From Candidatus Methanoperedentaceae archaeon (lineage in GTDB: Archaea; Halobacteriota; Methanosarcinia; Methanosarcinales; Methanoperedenaceae): DNA of 38,566 nucleotides. Shown here piece by piece: positions 24,143 to 33,025 of the stretch. Below the pieces are notes generated by a model. The model had not been told where the DNA came from and made no database searches. It saw only the letters and a list, made by a program, of their open reading frames with translations. The translations under genes and the position numbers were made by a program. Numbering within the stretch: position 1 is the stretch's first letter; the number at the start of each line of letters is the position of its first letter. The DNA lies in the NCBI GenBank assembly GCA_003104905.1, contig PQAS01000015.1, positions 1 to 38,566 of the forward strand, given 5' to 3'.

Positions 24143-24239
24143 TATTATTATAAAAATTGTAATCATATTCAGGGATTTGAGAGTATCTTATCGCCATAAA
24201 CGGGGAAGTTAGTGTAAATAAATAAATGGAGTGATAAAT

Positions 24240-26186
24240 ATGGGAGAAGAAATAAGAATAGAGAATAGCATTACGAATGATGCTGAAAGAAAAAATGATT
24301 TCCTGAAAATGGATAGGAGAACATTTGTTAAAGTGGCGGGTGGGGTGGCAGGAGCAATCGCTTTTGGAGGTTTGTCCGGACATCTCATACAGCGGGCAAG
24401 TGCTGCAGCAGGTACACCTAACATAACAAAGTTCGTCGATCCATTGTTAAGTTCAATCCCGAAACTTATTCCGGTTGCAAATGATGCGTATCCCGGAGCC
24501 GACTACTATGAGATAGAGATGAAACCCGGCAGATTTCAATTCAGCAGTCAACTGCCTGTGACCGCTTTAGCTGGTATTAATACGACTTGGGGCTATGGAG
24601 GAAGGGATTTGGCAAATAAAGGACCACTTGTTTTCCTCGGCTATCTTGGGCCCACCATCGAAGCCCAGAAAGGAAAAACAGTTGTAGTCAAGTTCATCAA
24701 CAACCTGCCCACGACTCACCCTCTTCAAGCGTCCATTGATCCAACTGTACCGGATCCGGCAATGTACTCTGATCTATATGATACGTCGACAAATCCACCA
24801 ACTCCCATACATATAGGACGCACAACCCCGCATTTGCACGGTGGGTTTACAGCTCCACAGTTTGACGGACATCCTCACTCGTGGTTCACACCGATTTCTG
24901 ATGGGGGAAAGGGCTCACACTACGCGACGCTATCTGGAGCGGCAGCAAATGAAGCAATATTCGTCTTTTCAAACCAGCAGCCAGCCACCAATCTCTGGTA
25001 TCATGACCATGCGATGGGCATTACGCGCTTGAACGTATATGCAGGGCTGGCAGGATTGTATTTCGTGCGCGATCAGTATGACACTGGCACGTCAAATCCC
25101 CCAACGCCAGGACTTAACCTTCCTGCAGGTAATTATGAAGTCCCGCTTGTTCTTCAGGACAAGCAGTTCAATGCCGACGGGACGCTCTTCTATCCGACAG
25201 TTGGTATCACTGCCGTACACCCCATTTGGATGCCTGAGTTCTTTGGTGATACTCCAGTAGTTAATGGCACAGCATATCCATTCCTAAGCGTAGAACCGCG
25301 TCGCTATCGATTCCGAATTTTGAATGGCTCACAAGCCCGTTTTTACAATCTCTGGTTCGATAATGGATTAGCTCCCATTCCATTCCATCTGATAGGAATG
25401 GAACAGAGCCTCGTGCCAACGCCGGTGGCGATGACAAAGTTGCTGATCGCACCTGGAGAGCGCGCCGATATCATTGTCGACTTTGCAGGTATGCAGAATC
25501 AAATGTTGACTCTGAAGAACAACGCAAAAGCACCCTATCCTGGAGGTAAAGGTGGCTTTGGTCAGATCATGCAGGTCCGTGTTAATTTACCTATGACAGG
25601 TACCGATACCACGACACCGGCTGCTAATCTCGTATTACCTCAGGTTCCTCGTCTTACTGGTGCCACAATTATGCGCGAAATTGTCATGAAAGAGGATGTC
25701 GATCCGGTAACTGGTCTGCCTATCGATATGAAACTCAACGGAAAGTGGTTCAACGACTTACCCATTGACGAAACTCCAACACAAAACGCTACCGAGGTCT
25801 GGCAATTCATCAATCTGACGGTAGATGCGCATCCAATGCACATGCATCTGGTCAAATTCCAGGTCTCTGATCGGCAGCCTTTCGATGCCAAAGCCTACAC
25901 AACTGCCTGGCTTAAATATCAAGCTGGGCTGGGTTCCAAACCAATTCTGGCAAACTTCCTGACCAAAGGACCTGCCGTACTGCCGCCACCTGAAGAAATG
26001 GGATGGAAGGATACTGCCAAATCTTATCCAGGTGAAATTCTGCGCGTCATCGCCAAATTCGAGCTTCCGGATGCCGATTCAAACATCCCAGGTTCAGGAA
26101 CACAACTTCCGGCGGAATATGTCTATCACTGCCACATTCTTGAACACGAAGAGAATGAGATGATGCGCCCGTTCACAGTAGGTTAA
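24240..26186 (+). CDS. Tat-exported multicopper oxidase (CotA/laccase-like)
   Basis: A 648-aa secreted copper enzyme that couples oxidation of a substrate (phenols, Mn(II), Fe(II) or other) to oxygen reduction in characterised relatives. The signal region has DRRTFVKVAGG (twin arginine) followed by a hydrophobic stretch and RASAAAG. All four copper motifs are present: HLHGGF (about 197), WYHDHAMG (about 252), HPMHMHLVKF (about 530) and HCHILEHEENEMM (about 629; the Met is the T1 axial ligand). ATG 24240 follows GGAG. The body uses CGN arginine codons much more than neighbouring genes. The oxidant available to an anaerobic host is unclear, so the physiological reaction is open. Confidence 0.95.
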   Translation: MGEEIRIENSITNDAERKNDFLKMDRRTFVKVAGGVAGAIAFGGLSGHLIQRASAAAGTPNITKFVDPLLSSIPKLIPVANDAYPGADYYEIEMKPGRFQFSSQLPVTALAGINTTWGYGGRDLANKGPLVFLGYLGPTIEAQKGKTVVVKFINNLPTTHPLQASIDPTVPDPAMYSDLYDTSTNPPTPIHIGRTTPHLHGGFTAPQFDGHPHSWFTPISDGGKGSHYATLSGAAANEAIFVFSNQQPATNLWYHDHAMGITRLNVYAGLAGLYFVRDQYDTGTSNPPTPGLNLPAGNYEVPLVLQDKQFNADGTLFYPTVGITAVHPIWMPEFFGDTPVVNGTAYPFLSVEPRRYRFRILNGSQARFYNLWFDNGLAPIPFHLIGMEQSLVPTPVAMTKLLIAPGERADIIVDFAGMQNQMLTLKNNAKAPYPGGKGGFGQIMQVRVNLPMTGTDTTTPAANLVLPQVPRLTGATIMREIVMKEDVDPVTGLPIDMKLNGKWFNDLPIDETPTQNATEVWQFINLTVDAHPMHMHLVKFQVSDRQPFDAKAYTTAWLKYQAGLGSKPILANFLTKGPAVLPPPEEMGWKDTAKSYPGEILRVIAKFELPDADSNIPGSGTQLPAEYVYHCHILEHEENEMMRPFTVG

Positions 26187-26702: not shown

Positions 26703-26809
26703 TATTTTCTTAATATTCCCATCATATCCGATAGAAAGACATATTAACTATGAGTATTATCATAATCATAGTTAATACAGTATTCTATAAAGATCATGGA
26801 AGGGAAATA

Positions 26810-27388
26810 ATGAGACGAAGCAGGATGGATATTGTTGTTGATGTATTGGAAGCTGCAAAAAATGGGGTTAATAAGACAGCAATAGTCTACAGGACAAATC
26901 TTAATTTTACGCTTGCAGAGAAATATCTTGAACTTCTGGAAAAACAGGGACTTCTTGAGAATAAGTCGGATAAATATATCACATCGGATAAAGGAAAAGT
27001 TTTCCTGGCAAAGGCTAAGGAAATAACCATGCAATTAGAAACTCCATTTCCAAAAATCAAAGAAAAAAAGATGCATAATGAAGATCCATCGTCAAAAATA
27101 AAACAAATGACCTTACAATATGAAGCGCCAATACAGAAAACGCAGGAAATGATATTACAGCATGAAGCGCCAATACAGAAAACGCAGGAAATGATATTAC
27201 AGCATGAAGCTCCAATTCAGAAAACGCAGGAAATGATATTACAGCATGAATCGCCTATACAGAAAATGCAGGAAATGATATTACAGCATGAAGCGCCTCA
27301 GAAAGTGGGGGAAATGAACTTGCAACAAGACTTATTGATGGAAAGACTGATTAGGGAAATAACGATACGCCGTGAAAATCCCAATTGA
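26810..27388 (+). CDS. Winged-helix protein with 14-residue tandem repeats
   Basis: A 192-aa protein. Residues 1-75 form a winged helix resembling archaeal DUF-type regulators (MDIVVDVLEAAKNGVNKTAI, then AEKYLELLEKQGLLENK, YITSDKGKVFLAKAKE). After a Lys-rich linker come about five copies of a 14-residue unit, APIQKTQEMILQHE, the DNA of which repeats every 42 bases. The unit is likely helical, and the start ATG 26810 has GGAAGGG upstream. DNA binding plus a variable repeat tail suggests a regulator with an adjustable oligomerisation arm; this is inference. Confidence 0.85.
   Translation: MRRSRMDIVVDVLEAAKNGVNKTAIVYRTNLNFTLAEKYLELLEKQGLLENKSDKYITSDKGKVFLAKAKEITMQLETPFPKIKEKKMHNEDPSSKIKQMTLQYEAPIQKTQEMILQHEAPIQKTQEMILQHEAPIQKTQEMILQHESPIQKMQEMILQHEAPQKVGEMNLQQDLLMERLIREITIRRENPN
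27122..27298 (+). repeat. 42-bp tandem repeat in coding region
   Basis: Units start at 27122, 27164, 27206 and 27248, with a partial fifth at 27290. The first two are identical by eye; the third differs at two bases and the fourth at a few more. The reading frame is preserved, so copy number could change without frameshift. Confidence 0.93.
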
Positions 27389-27405: not shown

Positions 27406-27603
27406 TCAATTAACCAGCAGTTCTAATCCTGAATCTGTAATCCTGACCGTTCCTTCTTTCAATTCGATTAAACCGAATTCTTTCATAAAATCAATAATTG
27501 CTGCCAGTGGTTGTATACTATCCTCCATTTTATCAAGATCTACTTCTTCCCCATTATAGAGCATTTCAAGAATCATATCTGCGTCTTCGCCGAATTTTGA
27601 CAT
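27406..27603 (-). CDS. Small winged-helix-like protein
   Basis: A 65-aa protein: an acidic helix (DADMILEMLYNGEEVDLDKM), then AAIIDFMKEFGLIELKEGTV and RITDSGLELLV, the recognition-helix-and-wing end of an archaeal winged helix. The N-terminal part of a full domain is short. It converges on the repeat-containing regulator. Possible transcription factor or a modulator; no partner shown. Confidence 0.6.
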   Translation of the reverse strand: MSKFGEDADMILEMLYNGEEVDLDKMEDSIQPLAAIIDFMKEFGLIELKEGTVRITDSGLELLVN

Positions 27604-27864: not shown

Positions 27865-28770
27865 ATGGTATTGAAAAATATAGCTGAATTGTTAAGACTT
27901 TGTAACACTCCGGCTACCATCATTTCACCTGTTCCATTCTTTGCGATAGCAATATTTTTGGCATCGCACAATGATTTTAATTATTATGGAATTCAAATTC
28001 TTTTTATTGGAATATTTGTTTCCCTTTCATCAAATTTCGCGTCTAACCTGTGGAACCATTGCAACGACCTTAAGGAAGATATAGCCCAGGGTAAAAAGAC
28101 AATCTTAACACAAGATCCTTCAATTCAAAAAAGTGCAATAATAATTGCAATCTTTTTGTATATAATTTCTTTTTTTATAGTTTATCAAATATCAATGGAA
28201 GTCCACAGACCCATTTACGTCTATTTCCTTATATGGGCGATCGCAACATGGTGTTATTCAGATAATTTAATCTTAAAAAAAATTACAGGCTTCAGGTTGA
28301 AAGAGCATTATATAGGAGAGTTCATAACATATGGGATCGCATGGCCGATGTACACTCTTAGCATCTGGTTAATATATTCAGAATTAACTATTACCGGTGA
28401 AATAATTATTGCAGCTTTTTTCTTCTTTAGCATATCAGGACTGTTATTAAAAGATCTAAAGGACATATCCGGTGACAGGAAAGCCGGACTAAAGACTTTA
28501 GGGGTAGTTTTTTCCCCGTCAAAATTGATCCGATATTCATGTTATTTGATGGTCATGTATTATTCTATTGTTTTGAACCCCATCACATTGGAACATTTTA
28601 ATAGCGGGACATTAATTATGATTGTCCCATTTGCTTATTTCTTAAAAAATACTTTTTTCCACATGTATCTCAAAAATTGGACTCTGGATATAGGAGATTT
28701 AAAGGCGCTCAAATCCATGGGATATTCTGCTTATGCATCAGTATTGATATTGGGATTTACGTTTTTGTAA
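27865..28770 (+). CDS. UbiA-family prenyltransferase
   Basis: A 301-aa membrane prenyltransferase with about eight or nine helices. The first Asp-rich motif is NDLKEDIAQGKKT (residues about 69-82) and the second is KDLKDISGDRKAG (about 194-206), the two diphosphate/Mg-binding sites of UbiA enzymes. It transfers an isoprenoid chain to an aromatic or other acceptor such as quinone, haem or lipid. The exact acceptor is unclear. ATG 27865 has no Shine-Dalgarno of its own, consistent with coupling to the preceding 30-aa gene. It converges on the FIST gene, leaving only 8 bases. Confidence 0.9.
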   Translation: MVLKNIAELLRLCNTPATIISPVPFFAIAIFLASHNDFNYYGIQILFIGIFVSLSSNFASNLWNHCNDLKEDIAQGKKTILTQDPSIQKSAIIIAIFLYIISFFIVYQISMEVHRPIYVYFLIWAIATWCYSDNLILKKITGFRLKEHYIGEFITYGIAWPMYTLSIWLIYSELTITGEIIIAAFFFFSISGLLLKDLKDISGDRKAGLKTLGVVFSPSKLIRYSCYLMVMYYSIVLNPITLEHFNSGTLIMIVPFAYFLKNTFFHMYLKNWTLDIGDLKALKSMGYSAYASVLILGFTFL

Positions 28771-28778
28771 ACAACGGA

Positions 28779-30212
28779 CTAAATCTTCAAACAGGCATTT
28801 GTACCTGCGCTTGAAAAGAAAATATTTTTGCCGGATTCCGATAAATAATTCCTCTTCTGGAATTCTTGCGGTAGATATACCGAGGGGGCACATGATAGAA
28901 TTCCAAAGTAATTCTCTCCCAGTAATTGTTTTATTTTATCTTTATATTCAAAAACTTTTTCTCCGAAGGCTGTTGTGACACCCACATCTAAGAAGAAATA
29001 AGTAAATTTATCATCAGATTTCAAAATATTCAAAGATGAAATGAAGGCATCGAACTTGTCTTCAATTATCTCATATACAAGAGCTACATCATCCGAGTAA
29101 TCCGAAACATCCACATAAAATGGAAATAATTCAAATGGATAGTATGCCCCTATTCCAAGCAGGAAAACCCCGTTTGTTTTTTTATTAAAGAATAAAAGTT
29201 CATAAGGTATATAGAGCTTATAATCTCCCTTTTCAAGTTTCCCTAACAAATCTTCTTTTTTTTTCTCTGCGGCGTATATCAGATTTTCCACCGCCTCAAC
29301 AGGGGCCATACCATCCAGAGAAATTAAGATATTCTTTTCAAAATTTGCCTTGAATTCTTTGATAATAGTGAATTCTTCGCCCACGTTGTGTCTGGTTTCT
29401 TCCATTGTCTTTCCTTTTTCAGAAAAGATATCGTCATAAAATGCTTTTATTCCTTTTTTCTCAATTATTAAAGCTGCAATCCCCCCCCCAATATCCTTGA
29501 AATTGCAGAATATGCTTGGAGAATTAATTCTTACATGCGTATGCATCACGTTTACACCTATGATAGGCACACTATAATTTGTTTGCTTTGAAAAAATTTC
29601 AAGGATTGTAGGGGGCAGGGGAAAAATTTTTTCTTTATCACAGTAATCCGAAAATTTTCCAGCATATTCTTTCTGTTTTTCAATCGTGGCACCTTTGCAC
29701 TGTTTGCTGTAATAATATCCTTTTGCAAAAAACTCAGCTGATTTAAGTACATTTGGTACTCTGACTAGAGGAAAATGTAACACAATAGATCCATTGTCAC
29801 ATTTTATCATTTTTGCAAGTTTTTCAGCTGAATTTACGACTCCTTTTTCGTTTAGCCCTTTGACACTAATATGAGCGCTATCATCTTTGCATAACACAAG
29901 AGCTGACCCATCTGTGCGCATGTCTTCGGGATAAATCATACCATCCACAGAGGCGCCAATTTGGGGTAGATCACCATACTCCTCATGGATTACATCCAGC
30001 ATGGCTTGGTAATTGCCGTTGTATTTCAGGGTGGCATAGAATAAAACGAGGTCCGGCTTAAAATTCAGATTCGAACGTGCCTGTTCAATAAGGTCTTGAG
30101 CCGCTTGATTATGATCTTTCTTATTACTGAAAAATGTTATTGACTTCGTTCTAACACCTGTCATATCATATATGCTGCTTGTGGATAAATATCTTATCAT
30201 CAATAGTATCAT
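28779..30212 (-). CDS. FIST-domain sensor protein
   Basis: A 477-aa protein with a FIST_N part (SNKKDHNQAAQDLIEQAR, DLVLFYATLKYNG, GDLPQIGASVDGMIYPED) and a FIST_C part ending PSVYLPQEF. FIST domains bind small ligands in signal-transduction proteins; here there is no attached kinase or cyclase. ATG 30212 is the first start, but MTGVRTKSITFF (ATG about 30164) may be the true one since it begins directly at the first strand. It is the third gene of the KaiC-like/Roadblock-like/FIST run. Confidence 0.85.
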   Translation of the reverse strand: MILLMIRYLSTSSIYDMTGVRTKSITFFSNKKDHNQAAQDLIEQARSNLNFKPDLVLFYATLKYNGNYQAMLDVIHEEYGDLPQIGASVDGMIYPEDMRTDGSALVLCKDDSAHISVKGLNEKGVVNSAEKLAKMIKCDNGSIVLHFPLVRVPNVLKSAEFFAKGYYYSKQCKGATIEKQKEYAGKFSDYCDKEKIFPLPPTILEIFSKQTNYSVPIIGVNVMHTHVRINSPSIFCNFKDIGGGIAALIIEKKGIKAFYDDIFSEKGKTMEETRHNVGEEFTIIKEFKANFEKNILISLDGMAPVEAVENLIYAAEKKKEDLLGKLEKGDYKLYIPYELLFFNKKTNGVFLLGIGAYYPFELFPFYVDVSDYSDDVALVYEIIEDKFDAFISSLNILKSDDKFTYFFLDVGVTTAFGEKVFEYKDKIKQLLGENYFGILSCAPSVYLPQEFQKRNYLSESGKNIFFSSAGTNACLKI

Positions 30213-30242
30213 AATGAAATATTGAATTATAATTGAAAATAT

Positions 30243-30596
30243 CTATGCAACACAGGATTCGATGATCCTGGTAGCCCGAAGCGCCTCAAGCGAGATGAGC
30301 TGCTGATTCGCTTCTCCTTTTGCAATAGTAACAAGAACTGTGGACTTAGAAGATGGAGCAATGAGTATACGATTGTTCCTGAAATAAAAAATAGTTTCCT
30401 TCAATCCTTCACGATTCATTTCCCCCAGCACTCGCCTTATATGTTTTTCAAGCCAGAACATCGTTTCCAGAAGGTCTTCCCTGTAACCTGGAGCCCTTAA
30501 CGTAATTGGCACGCCATCTATTCTGTAAAGCATGCAGGCTTCAATTCCCTCGATTTCATAAAGTTGATCCAGGGTATCTTCAAGTTTTATTATCAT
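30243..30596 (-). CDS. Roadblock/LC7-like small protein
   Basis: A 117-aa protein. From ATG 30596 it reads MIIKLEDTLDQLYEIEGIEA, then CMLYRIDGVPITLRA, and strands FRNNRILIAPSSKSTVLVTIAKG, the alpha/beta profile of Roadblock/LC7 proteins, which bind and regulate small NTPases. Its start overlaps the end of the upstream KaiC-like gene by 17 bases, so they are coupled. An upstream start (30653) lies inside that gene and is unlikely. Confidence 0.75.
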   Translation of the reverse strand: MIIKLEDTLDQLYEIEGIEACMLYRIDGVPITLRAPGYREDLLETMFWLEKHIRRVLGEMNREGLKETIFYFRNNRILIAPSSKSTVLVTIAKGEANQQLISLEALRATRIIESCVA

Positions 30597-31506
30597 TGTT
30601 TTTTTTCTCTTGTTTAATGACCATTTCAAGAATCTGCTGGGGATCGTCATCATGGACCCAGTTCTTTCTCAAGATTTCGATTCTTGTCGCCAATTTTTCA
30701 CCCAGTTCTCCCATTGATCTTGATTTCTCAACAGCCTGTACAAATCTATCATCGAACTTGGTTTTTGGTATAACCCTGTCGATCTGTTTTTTCGAAGCTC
30801 TCAGAACAATTCCTAATCCGGTCTCTATGGAATAAGGATATATCCCTTCACCATGTTTAGACCCCCTGTGTTTCATTATCCTGATCGTTCTGTCATACAT
30901 TTCCCCAAATCCCAGATTCTGCAAGAATAGAACAGTATCAGATAAATATAACGGCATGGATAAAGCTTTGGTATTACTTTGAATTTCAGCTGAACCCCCG
31001 AAATTTGCTGAGGCTACACCATCAGCAGGCTCTTCCAGAACCACAAGTGTTGTTCCAAATGTTCGAAGGTCCTGGAATATCGTACTGATCGATTTTCTTT
31101 TCTCTTTATCCGAATAAAAAGTAGGATATGTAAAAGGATCAATTACTATTCTTGGATTGTGTCCGGAAATTGATTTCTTGATGATCTCCGTAATATCCAG
31201 ACTCGGGAATTCTAAGTCTTCTCCAAAAATATGGAGTATTTTCAGATCACCTTCCTCAATATAATCTTTAATAATTCCCCACCCTATGTCTGTGCAATCA
31301 CGGATGATTTGCTGCTCTGACATCTCAAAAGAAACATAAAGGACTTTCTCCCCGCGATCTAATCCAAAAAGCGAATATTGCAATGCAAATGTGGTTTTAC
31401 CGACACCTGGCCCACCATATATTGAATTAATAGTATTCTTCCTGAAGCCTCCATCCATAAGGTCATCCAGGCCATATATCCCTGTTAATATCCTACCATT
31501 TTTCAT
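30580..31506 (-). CDS. KaiC-like ATPase, first gene of sensory cluster
   Basis: A 308-aa RecA-superfamily ATPase: RILTGIYGLDDLMDGGF, Walker A YGGPGVGKTTFA, glutamate-bearing VLYVSFEMSEQQIIRD and Walker B RIVIDPFTYPTF, then KHRGSKHGEGIYPY. A C-terminal tail of about 80 residues (RSMGELGEKLATRIEILRKN) is rich in charged helix and is not in the shorter KaiC-like gene at 15297. ATG 31506 has GAGGTGG upstream. Next genes encode a Roadblock-like and a FIST protein. Confidence 0.92.
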   Translation of the reverse strand: MKNGRILTGIYGLDDLMDGGFRKNTINSIYGGPGVGKTTFALQYSLFGLDRGEKVLYVSFEMSEQQIIRDCTDIGWGIIKDYIEEGDLKILHIFGEDLEFPSLDITEIIKKSISGHNPRIVIDPFTYPTFYSDKEKRKSISTIFQDLRTFGTTLVVLEEPADGVASANFGGSAEIQSNTKALSMPLYLSDTVLFLQNLGFGEMYDRTIRIMKHRGSKHGEGIYPYSIETGLGIVLRASKKQIDRVIPKTKFDDRFVQAVEKSRSMGELGEKLATRIEILRKNWVHDDDPQQILEMVIKQEKKNNDNKT

Positions 31507-31604
31507 AATACTTCCACCTCATTATTATAATGTTATCTGATATGCTCAAATTATTATTTATAGTTTAGTATTTGCAAATGGATGAGCCCATTGAATCCAA
31601 TTCT

Positions 31605-31829
31605 TTAGTCCATTTCAAACTTTTCAGTTCTGGATCCCCCATTTTCCAGGATCAATTGCTCAACTTTCTGCTGTGCACACTGTATTTTAGTATTGCACTC
31701 TCTTACAAGCTTGATCCCCTTCTCAAAAAGCATAAGGCTCTCATCAAGTGAAAGCTGCCCTTTCTCTAGCTTATCCACAATTCCCTCAAGTTCTTTAAGT
31801 GATTCCTCAAAACTCATTTCCATATGCAT
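31605..31829 (-). CDS. xseB: Exodeoxyribonuclease VII small subunit
   Basis: A 74-aa protein that matches XseB: FEESLKELEGIVDKLEKGQL and SLDESLMLFEKGIKLVRECN form the antiparallel helices that stabilise XseA. It overlaps the end of xseA by 16 bases. Exo VII removes nucleotides from single-stranded DNA ends. Bacterial in origin, but present in Methanosarcina-type archaea. Confidence 0.96.
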   Translation of the reverse strand: MHMEMSFEESLKELEGIVDKLEKGQLSLDESLMLFEKGIKLVRECNTKIQCAQQKVEQLILENGGSRTEKFEMD

Positions 31830-33025
31830 TCCTCTTTATCATTAACATTGCACGCGATCTTTCCATCGCTCACAATTATCGAAACCTCATCTGATCTTTC
31901 CACATCTTTTATGCTTTGAACGAGTGTTTTCCCGGGAAGTTTCAATGTAATGCCATACCCTCTCGACAGCGTACCAAGCGGGCTTACAGCATTAAGTTTT
32001 CCTGCATTTGCATCCAATGAAGCCTTTTTAATATCAACGAGTCTTCCAATACTCAATTCCTGCTTCTGTGTGAGATCATCGATAAATTGAATATGACGGG
32101 TCAATAGTTCAAGAAATAAAACCGGATCGACATCCTCCCCCAGATCAGAAAGATGTGAAATCCTGTCGCCCACAAATCGCCTCTGGTTCTCTATCAACCT
32201 TTGCCCCAGCCTGGCGATATGATTTGAGAGTTCAAGACGGTCAGGGACTGCAATTTCCGCAGCAGCCGAAGGCGTAGGCGCCCTGGCATCGGCTACAAAA
32301 TCTGCAATAGTAAAATCGGTCTCATGTCCCACTGCTGAAATTATCGGAATCCTTGAATCGAAAATCGCGCGTGCGACCACTTCTTCATTAAATGCCCAGA
32401 GGTCTTCAATTGAACCTCCGCCTCTGCCAAGTATTATAATATCCGCATCGGTCTTATTCAGGGCGCGGATCGAGCTTACTATGCTTTCTGCTGCGCTGTC
32501 ACCCTGTACAACCGTAGGGATAAAAAGAATATTGACCGGATACCTCCTTCCAAGCACCGTGAGCATATCATGAAGAACAGCGCCGGTAGGGGATGTTGCC
32601 ACACCTATTTTCTTCGGGAACCTTTTCAGGGGTTTTTTATGGTCGGGTGAAAAAAGTCCCTCCATGGCAAGTTTATTCTTCAATTGCTCATATGCTTTAT
32701 AGAGTTCTCCTATACCGTCAGGGCGAATATCCCTGACCTTTAACTGGTACACACCTTTCTGTTCGTATACATCCGGATCCCCGAGAACCAGGACCTTCAT
32801 GCCACGTTCCAATTCAAACCTCAGGTTCCTGCCATACCATTTGAACATGACACACTGAAGCTGGCTGTTTTTATCTTTCAGGGTAAAATAACGATGGCCT
32901 GAGCTATGATTTGTAAAATTCGATATTTCACCCCGGATCCAGGCATCATTTAATTGGCCTGTGGTAAGAATTCGCTTTACTGCCAATGTGAATTCATGGA
33001 CAGTATAGATGCCTTTAGTTTCCAT
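31814..33025 (-). CDS. xseA: Exodeoxyribonuclease VII large subunit
   Basis: A 403-aa catalytic subunit. The N-terminal OB fold (IYTVHEFTLAVKRIL, then WIRGEISNFTNHSSGHRYFT) binds single-stranded DNA; the catalytic region shows GVATSPTGAVLHDML, IIILGRGGGSIEDLWAFNEE and ISAVGHETDFTIADFVAD, followed by a coiled coil and a C-terminal segment (LSRGYGITLK). Together with xseB it makes the complete enzyme. Confidence 0.97.
   Translation of the reverse strand: METKGIYTVHEFTLAVKRILTTGQLNDAWIRGEISNFTNHSSGHRYFTLKDKNSQLQCVMFKWYGRNLRFELERGMKVLVLGDPDVYEQKGVYQLKVRDIRPDGIGELYKAYEQLKNKLAMEGLFSPDHKKPLKRFPKKIGVATSPTGAVLHDMLTVLGRRYPVNILFIPTVVQGDSAAESIVSSIRALNKTDADIIILGRGGGSIEDLWAFNEEVVARAIFDSRIPIISAVGHETDFTIADFVADARAPTPSAAAEIAVPDRLELSNHIARLGQRLIENQRRFVGDRISHLSDLGEDVDPVLFLELLTRHIQFIDDLTQKQELSIGRLVDIKKASLDANAGKLNAVSPLGTLSRGYGITLKLPGKTLVQSIKDVERSDEVSIIVSDGKIACNVNDKEECIWK

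Follow-up and report, generated by a model that had tools for sequence, protein, structure and literature searches.

The KaiC-like, Roadblock and FIST genes found in the window, the stretch of 38,566 nucleotides analysed here, are part of a module of four genes, whose fourth obligate member encodes a membrane prenyltransferase of the UbiA superfamily. The four genes are inherited together, they fall into two co-evolving sub-blocks (KaiC-Roadblock and FIST-UbiA), and the ATPase and the prenyltransferase retain their catalytic residues. A preliminary description had proposed a sensory system of the first three proteins; the families and their operon-like arrangement stand, but the set was incomplete, as UbiA accompanies it in 21 genera. 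We tentatively favour the view that this ancient module, in which kaiC-like, roadblock and FIST are followed by a convergent ubiA, is a ligand-responsive, ATP-driven switch acting on a membrane prenyltransferase.

Arrangement of the genes in the window

The window belongs to a genome of the genus Candidatus Methanoperedens (2.9 Mb, 98% complete) and its features are listed in Table 1. Pfam matches, orthologues and fold models bear out the earlier observation that the KaiC-like, Roadblock-like and FIST genes form one operon-like row on the minus strand. The Roadblock open reading frame spans 30243-30653 (-), with its conserved start at the ATG at 30596, so that the start of this gene overlaps the kaiC stop by the 17 bases originally noted (30580-30596). 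The FIST gene was described as following within 35 bases, which is correct for its first in-frame ATG at 30212 (open reading frame 28779-30212, 30 bases from roadblock) but not for the start conserved among orthologues (MTGVRTKSITFF), which lies 48 bases further in, near 30164, and is probably the true one. Since orthologue alignments place the start there, the gap between roadblock and FIST would be ~78 bases, not 30. The ubiA gene stops 8 bases short of the end of FIST; as the two genes are convergent, ubiA is not co-transcribed with FIST.

Bacterial-type exonuclease VII genes, xseA and xseB (31605-33025, minus strand), are located directly upstream of the module here and in many other Methanoperedens loci. 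The putative TATA-like stretch in front of kaiC suggests that the module has a promoter of its own, apart from xseAB. The small winged-helix-like protein encoded next to ubiA is a neighbour in Methanoperedens only and is outside the wider module. The window also encodes an HTH_45 winged-helix protein (26750-27388, plus strand) with near-identical 14-residue repeats in its C-terminal part (QHEAPIQKTQEMIL), and a multicopper oxidase (24231-26186, plus strand) that has a TAT-signal-like N-terminus, in the genome of an anaerobe.

Table 1. Features of the module and its surroundings (positions in the window unless a locus is named)
Feature	Position	Strand	Basis
KaiC-like single-domain ATPase, 308 aa	30580..31506	-	PF06745 (E 4.1e-34), orthologue alignments, KaiC structures
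Roadblock/LC7-fold protein, 117 aa	30243..30596	-	Orthologues, Pfam on orthologues, model and PDB fold search
FIST protein, ~461 aa (probable start)	28779..30164	-	PF08495, orthologues, model and PDB fold search (FBXO22)
UbiA-superfamily membrane prenyltransferase, 301 aa, convergent with FIST	27865..28770	+	PF01040 (E 4.2e-20), Asp motifs
Putative TATA-box-like AT-rich stretch CTAAACTATAAATAATAA, ~45-60 bases upstream of kaiC start	31551..31570	-	Sequence reading only
Winged-helix-like protein, 65 aa, adjoining ubiA	27406..27603	-	tblastn (13 same-genus loci), weak Pfam/NCBIfam matches
GGR-type FAD gene of a distinctive subfamily, in or beside the module	L042:9711-10931, L038:514-1710, L144:5017-6168		

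Distribution and co-inheritance of the module

An orthologue of the KaiC-like protein is present in 19 of 31 Methanoperedens genomes (65-83% identity); paralogues mostly show no more than ~35% identity over comparable length. Most of the loci fetched with KaiC in this genus have the order kaiC-roadblock-FIST followed by convergent ubiA, and Roadblock adjoins KaiC in all but two of those other than the window, one of the exceptions being a locus that ends inside kaiC. The genes upstream differ between loci (xseA-xseB, a trpG-like gene, a PIN-domain gene and others). The presence of KaiC agrees with that of FIST in 29 of the 31 genomes (p 2e-6, ignoring phylogeny), and UbiA orthologues are found in exactly the 19 genomes with FIST and in none of the remaining 12 (Fisher p 7e-9, likewise ignoring phylogeny). 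In most genomes the copy number of UbiA equals that of FIST.

Some Methanoperedens genomes, including the host of the window, possess a second FIST-ubiA pair without KaiC or Roadblock, and eight FIST-UbiA loci of the genus lack both genes nearby. The second pair in the host genome (G000:C53:44193-46468; L052:6167-8472) is 62-63% identical to the pair in the window; it lies near a methyltransferase gene and glutamate-synthase-like genes. In G001 and G003 (loci L039, L041, L089 and L090) KaiC-roadblock stands alone and FIST-ubiA is located elsewhere in the same genome, and therefore the two sub-blocks are separable. The FIST-ubiA pair beside KaiC in G005 is ~63% identical to that of the window, with 81-85% identity for KaiC and Roadblock, as would result from a replacement of FIST and ubiA together. 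Distances within Methanoperedens reveal the same division, with a partial r of 0.76 for FIST-UbiA given KaiC and 0.67 for KaiC-Roadblock given FIST, correlations that are partly due to phylogeny; the link between the two blocks is weaker than that within them.

Outside this genus, FIST profiles, together with a scan of named genomes with near-clade-specific FIST patterns, identified relatives in further genera of this order, which carry the GTDB names ANME-2 (HR1, B4-08, MAG_011), GoM-Arc1 GB37 and Methanoperedenaceae, and also in Mnemosynella. Deep profile scans, which covered the 393 genomes of the host phylum, detected FIST in 20 genera. Of the 28 loci baited with FIST outside Methanoperedens, 27 have KaiC and Roadblock next to it; in the remaining one, G366, a module-type Roadblock is encoded at another site of the genome. 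A convergent ubiA directly neighbours FIST in all 26 of the non-genus loci whose contig continues, and the ends of these two genes usually overlap, by 4 to 45 bases. One family (f3) has ANME-2 loci in which kaiC-roadblock is flipped and points away from FIST, yet is retained next to it, and the linkage has therefore survived rearrangement. In a further locus (L141:1885-2720) genes for an EarA-like regulator and archaellum proteins of the FlaD/E type are inserted on the opposite strand between roadblock and FIST. Clustering of 827 open reading frames from 56 loci, for which the bait was KaiC or FIST and never Roadblock or UbiA, showed that FIST, KaiC, UbiA and Roadblock each occur in 21 genera, the next most widespread neighbour being RadA with 6. 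Linkage and order of the genes persist in 21 genera and exceed what chance would produce; the gene order is not limited to this genome, the outcome that was to refute the preliminary description, but recurs in 56 related loci.

Independent phylum-wide profiles for Roadblock (A8) and UbiA (A9) separate the module proteins from other family members: module Roadblock proteins score at least 82 bits against ~40 or less for others, and module UbiA proteins at least 184 bits against ~60 or less. Roadblock is present in 55, FIST in 54 (after 12 genomes had been scanned again with a deeper profile) and UbiA in 51 of the 393 genomes, and these sets are nested, UbiA within FIST and FIST within Roadblock. 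A truncated Roadblock match (G484, 76% complete) and partial matches to FIST (G281, G425 and G468) account for the mismatches in this nesting. All three proteins are absent from the other 338 genomes. Within genus g50 of family f10, which we take to be the Archaeoglobaceae, and within Methanoperedens, the set is either wholly present or wholly absent, which argues for a dispensable function that is inherited as a unit.

Properties of the encoded proteins

Archaea are rich in KaiC-like ATPases, most of which have no assigned input or output. The closest solved structures to the module protein are those of KaiC (E 1e-70). Its Walker A motif is GGPGVGKT, with the GxxGxGK pattern kept among orthologues, and the glycines and lysine of Walker A are invariant in the orthologue alignment, as are D123 of Walker B and K212, R214 and H218, which belong to the KaiC-type trans-acting motif K212-x-R214-G...H218. 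The catalytic-type residue E61 is glutamate in all orthologues except those of the Archaeoglobaceae, where it is aspartate, and ATPase activity may therefore vary. The ATPase domain is followed by a conserved C-terminal tail of ~70 aa, which may provide a site for Roadblock. No relative of this protein was found among viral contigs. The KaiC fold, the Walker motifs and the K/R finger motif are shared with the cyanobacterial KaiABC clock; however, clock KaiC has two domains and functions with KaiA and KaiB, whereas the module protein has a single domain and neighbour clustering of the 56 loci revealed neither of these partners of a Kai circadian clock in the conserved unit. A 2017 proposal (Makarova, Galperin and Koonin), cited in PMC5847659, regards KaiC-like ATPases as archaeal signalling hubs. 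The hubs resemble the module in having a single-domain KaiC-family ATPase encoded with putative sensor or adaptor genes; the module differs by its Roadblock, FIST and membrane prenyltransferase. This is the nearest concept, and we count the module as a form of KaiC-based regulation in archaea whose metabolic output would be unusual. The literature searched, to which the 2017 survey of archaeal KaiC neighbourhoods does not belong, yielded nothing relevant on KaiC in combination with FIST plus Roadblock or a prenyltransferase, and the ANME comparative-genomics papers checked mention none of the module gene names; in agreement with the earlier statement, no described system with exactly this set emerged from it.

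The Roadblock protein of the window is below the PF03259 gathering score (14.6 against 23 bits); the family is matched by 16 of 18 orthologues (best E 3.5e-4). All top matches of its AlphaFold model (pLDDT 91.6) in a PDB fold search are Roadblock proteins (E ~1e-6, prob 1.00), including Roadblock3 of an Asgard archaeon, MglB and LAMTOR. Judged by this model, whose fold is confirmed in the search, the small protein is a divergent Roadblock protein. In the MglA-MglB and Ragulator (LAMTOR) systems a protein of this fold regulates an NTPase partner, but its candidate partner in the module is a KaiC-type ATPase, and no small Ras-like GTPase, as in an MglA/MglB-type switch, is found among the conserved neighbours of the 56 loci.

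The N-terminal FIST domain exceeds its Pfam cut-off (26.6 against 23.2 bits), and no FIST_C match was obtained in Pfam at E 0.1 for the window protein. According to its model (pLDDT 79.7) the whole FIST fold is present, the top matches in the PDB being four chains of FBXO22 (E 2e-6 to 4e-4), a eukaryotic FIST protein. The domain is common to FIST sensory proteins and FBXO22, and the full-length fold of the module protein matches the latter, but the module FIST stands alone, without kinase, cyclase, chemoreceptor or F-box part, and without the FIST_C sequence match. A PDB sequence search for its function gave no match. By analogy with the family as a whole, it may bind a small ligand.

In the UbiA alignment N64..D68..D72 and D197..D200..D204 are invariant. 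Models of chlorophyll synthase and DGGGP synthase come closest, though all remain far below the NCBIfam cut-off, and no NCBIfam cut-off of a curated subfamily was reached, MenA and MqnP included. Given the invariant motifs and the distance from the nearest models, the protein probably has prenyltransferase activity and represents a separate subfamily. It shares the fold family and both aspartate motifs with ChlG/BchG, DGGGP synthase, UBIAD1 and AfUbiA, and forms a discrete subfamily. Identity with the crystallised AfUbiA was rejected, there being no match, as was a role as the dedicated futalosine prenyltransferase MqnP, whose expected co-occurrence with mqn genes is incomplete both ways.

Other isoprenoid-related genes occur close to the module. 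A gene of the geranylgeranyl reductase (GGR) family is located between roadblock and FIST in G002 and G025, and its subfamily is found nowhere else in the 31 Methanoperedens genomes searched. In locus L042 (9585-12303) a frameshift breaks FIST, and the reductase gene is inserted behind an N-terminal fragment of FIST. Relatives in the Archaeoglobaceae are 0.6-1.1 kb from the module ubiA in G393, G449 and G275, making five genomes of two families with such a gene beside the module; it occurs only there where position can be judged, the copies in G397 and G472 being on other contigs than their module. A reductase of the AF_0648 type was rejected as the identity of this neighbour, since G336, presumably A. 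fulgidus, has no GGR match at E 1e-12, which places the neighbour in another subfamily. AF_0648 is the characterised menaquinone prenyl reductase of Archaeoglobus fulgidus (PMC10821996). The module of G011 (L049:7941-9872) contains an inserted squalene-hopene-cyclase-type gene and a second roadblock.

Possible function of the module

The two blocks seen in the distances can be read as a sensor-enzyme pair, one partner soluble and the other in the membrane, to which an ATPase and its adaptor are coupled. Because FIST and UbiA remain together even where KaiC and Roadblock are missing, the system is probably tied to membrane isoprenoid chemistry rather than being a sensory circuit on its own. In the switch that we tentatively propose, UbiA would attach a prenyl chain to an acceptor, and FIST would be its specific soluble partner, binding the acceptor, the product or some small molecule related to them. 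Together with its Roadblock adaptor, the KaiC-like ring would change state with nucleotide and act through FIST, thereby setting the activity or access of UbiA. This suggests an undescribed switch controlling membrane-lipid or electron-carrier chemistry in methane- and sulfur-metabolising archaea. A bolder form, in which a KaiC-type ring with Roadblock directly gates the prenyltransferase through a FIST sensor, so that anaerobic methane oxidisers and Archaeoglobi would make a novel isoprenoid, is conceivable though doubtful. The candidate KaiC partners are fixed over 21 genera, cultivable Archaeoglobi included, and hence input (the FIST ligand), switch (KaiC-Roadblock) and output (the UbiA product) could be tested with four purified proteins. 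If the proposal is true, FIST, a domain shared with human FBXO22, gains a defined metabolic partner, and novel isoprenoid chemistry is indicated in anaerobic methane oxidisers.

The mobility of FIST and UbiA as a block would also suit a biosynthetic cluster, in which FIST is an enzyme that makes or activates the UbiA acceptor, GGR and cyclase tailor the product, and KaiC-Roadblock is only a scaffold or regulator. The GGR and squalene-hopene cyclase neighbours are consistent with this, as are the matches of the FIST model that follow FBXO22, to Toblerone-fold cyclic-amide hydrolases (E 4e-4) and, very weakly, to chorismatases. We nevertheless consider it unlikely: TM-scores to these enzyme folds are low (0.26-0.29 of the query), few of the twelve invariant positions in FIST are polar (N205, D245 and D393), and KaiC-Roadblock is left unexplained in nearly all loci. 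It is a little harder still to accept that UbiA is a menaquinone (futalosine) or methanophenazine prenyltransferase whose quinone supply the other three proteins control. Menaquinone in Methanoperedens and Archaeoglobus, and the likely methanophenazine of ANME-2a (PMC5244752, PMC7327174), count in its favour; moreover MqnA/D-type genes are present in 45 of the 54 module genomes, and in three genomes the second FIST-ubiA copy has UbiD and UbiX genes as direct neighbours. However, complete genomes such as G047 and G362 have the module without mqn genes and 58 genomes have mqn without the module, and this separation in both directions makes a pure quinone pathway unlikely. Furthermore, UbiA is absent from 12 Methanoperedens genomes although the menaquinone pathway is reported in nearly all of the family (PMC7327174), Methanosarcinaceae-type relatives in the order lack the module UbiA, and the protein never reaches a MenA or MqnP cut-off.

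A stand-alone ligand-to-ATPase system of three proteins, with UbiA as a mere neighbour, appears improbable. Its families do fit a sensor-adaptor-ATPase scheme, and KaiC-like ATPases figure as archaeal signalling hubs in the proposal cited in PMC5847659, but UbiA equals the other three in constancy and has the phyletic pattern of FIST, and the eight FIST-UbiA loci remote from KaiC and Roadblock also speak against it. Gene order can persist by descent in related archaea, and the four genes might thus be a frozen neighbourhood without functional relation; this we regard as very improbable indeed, for they have remained together while all flanking genes changed and through a divergent rearrangement, and have been lost or gained as a set within two genera.
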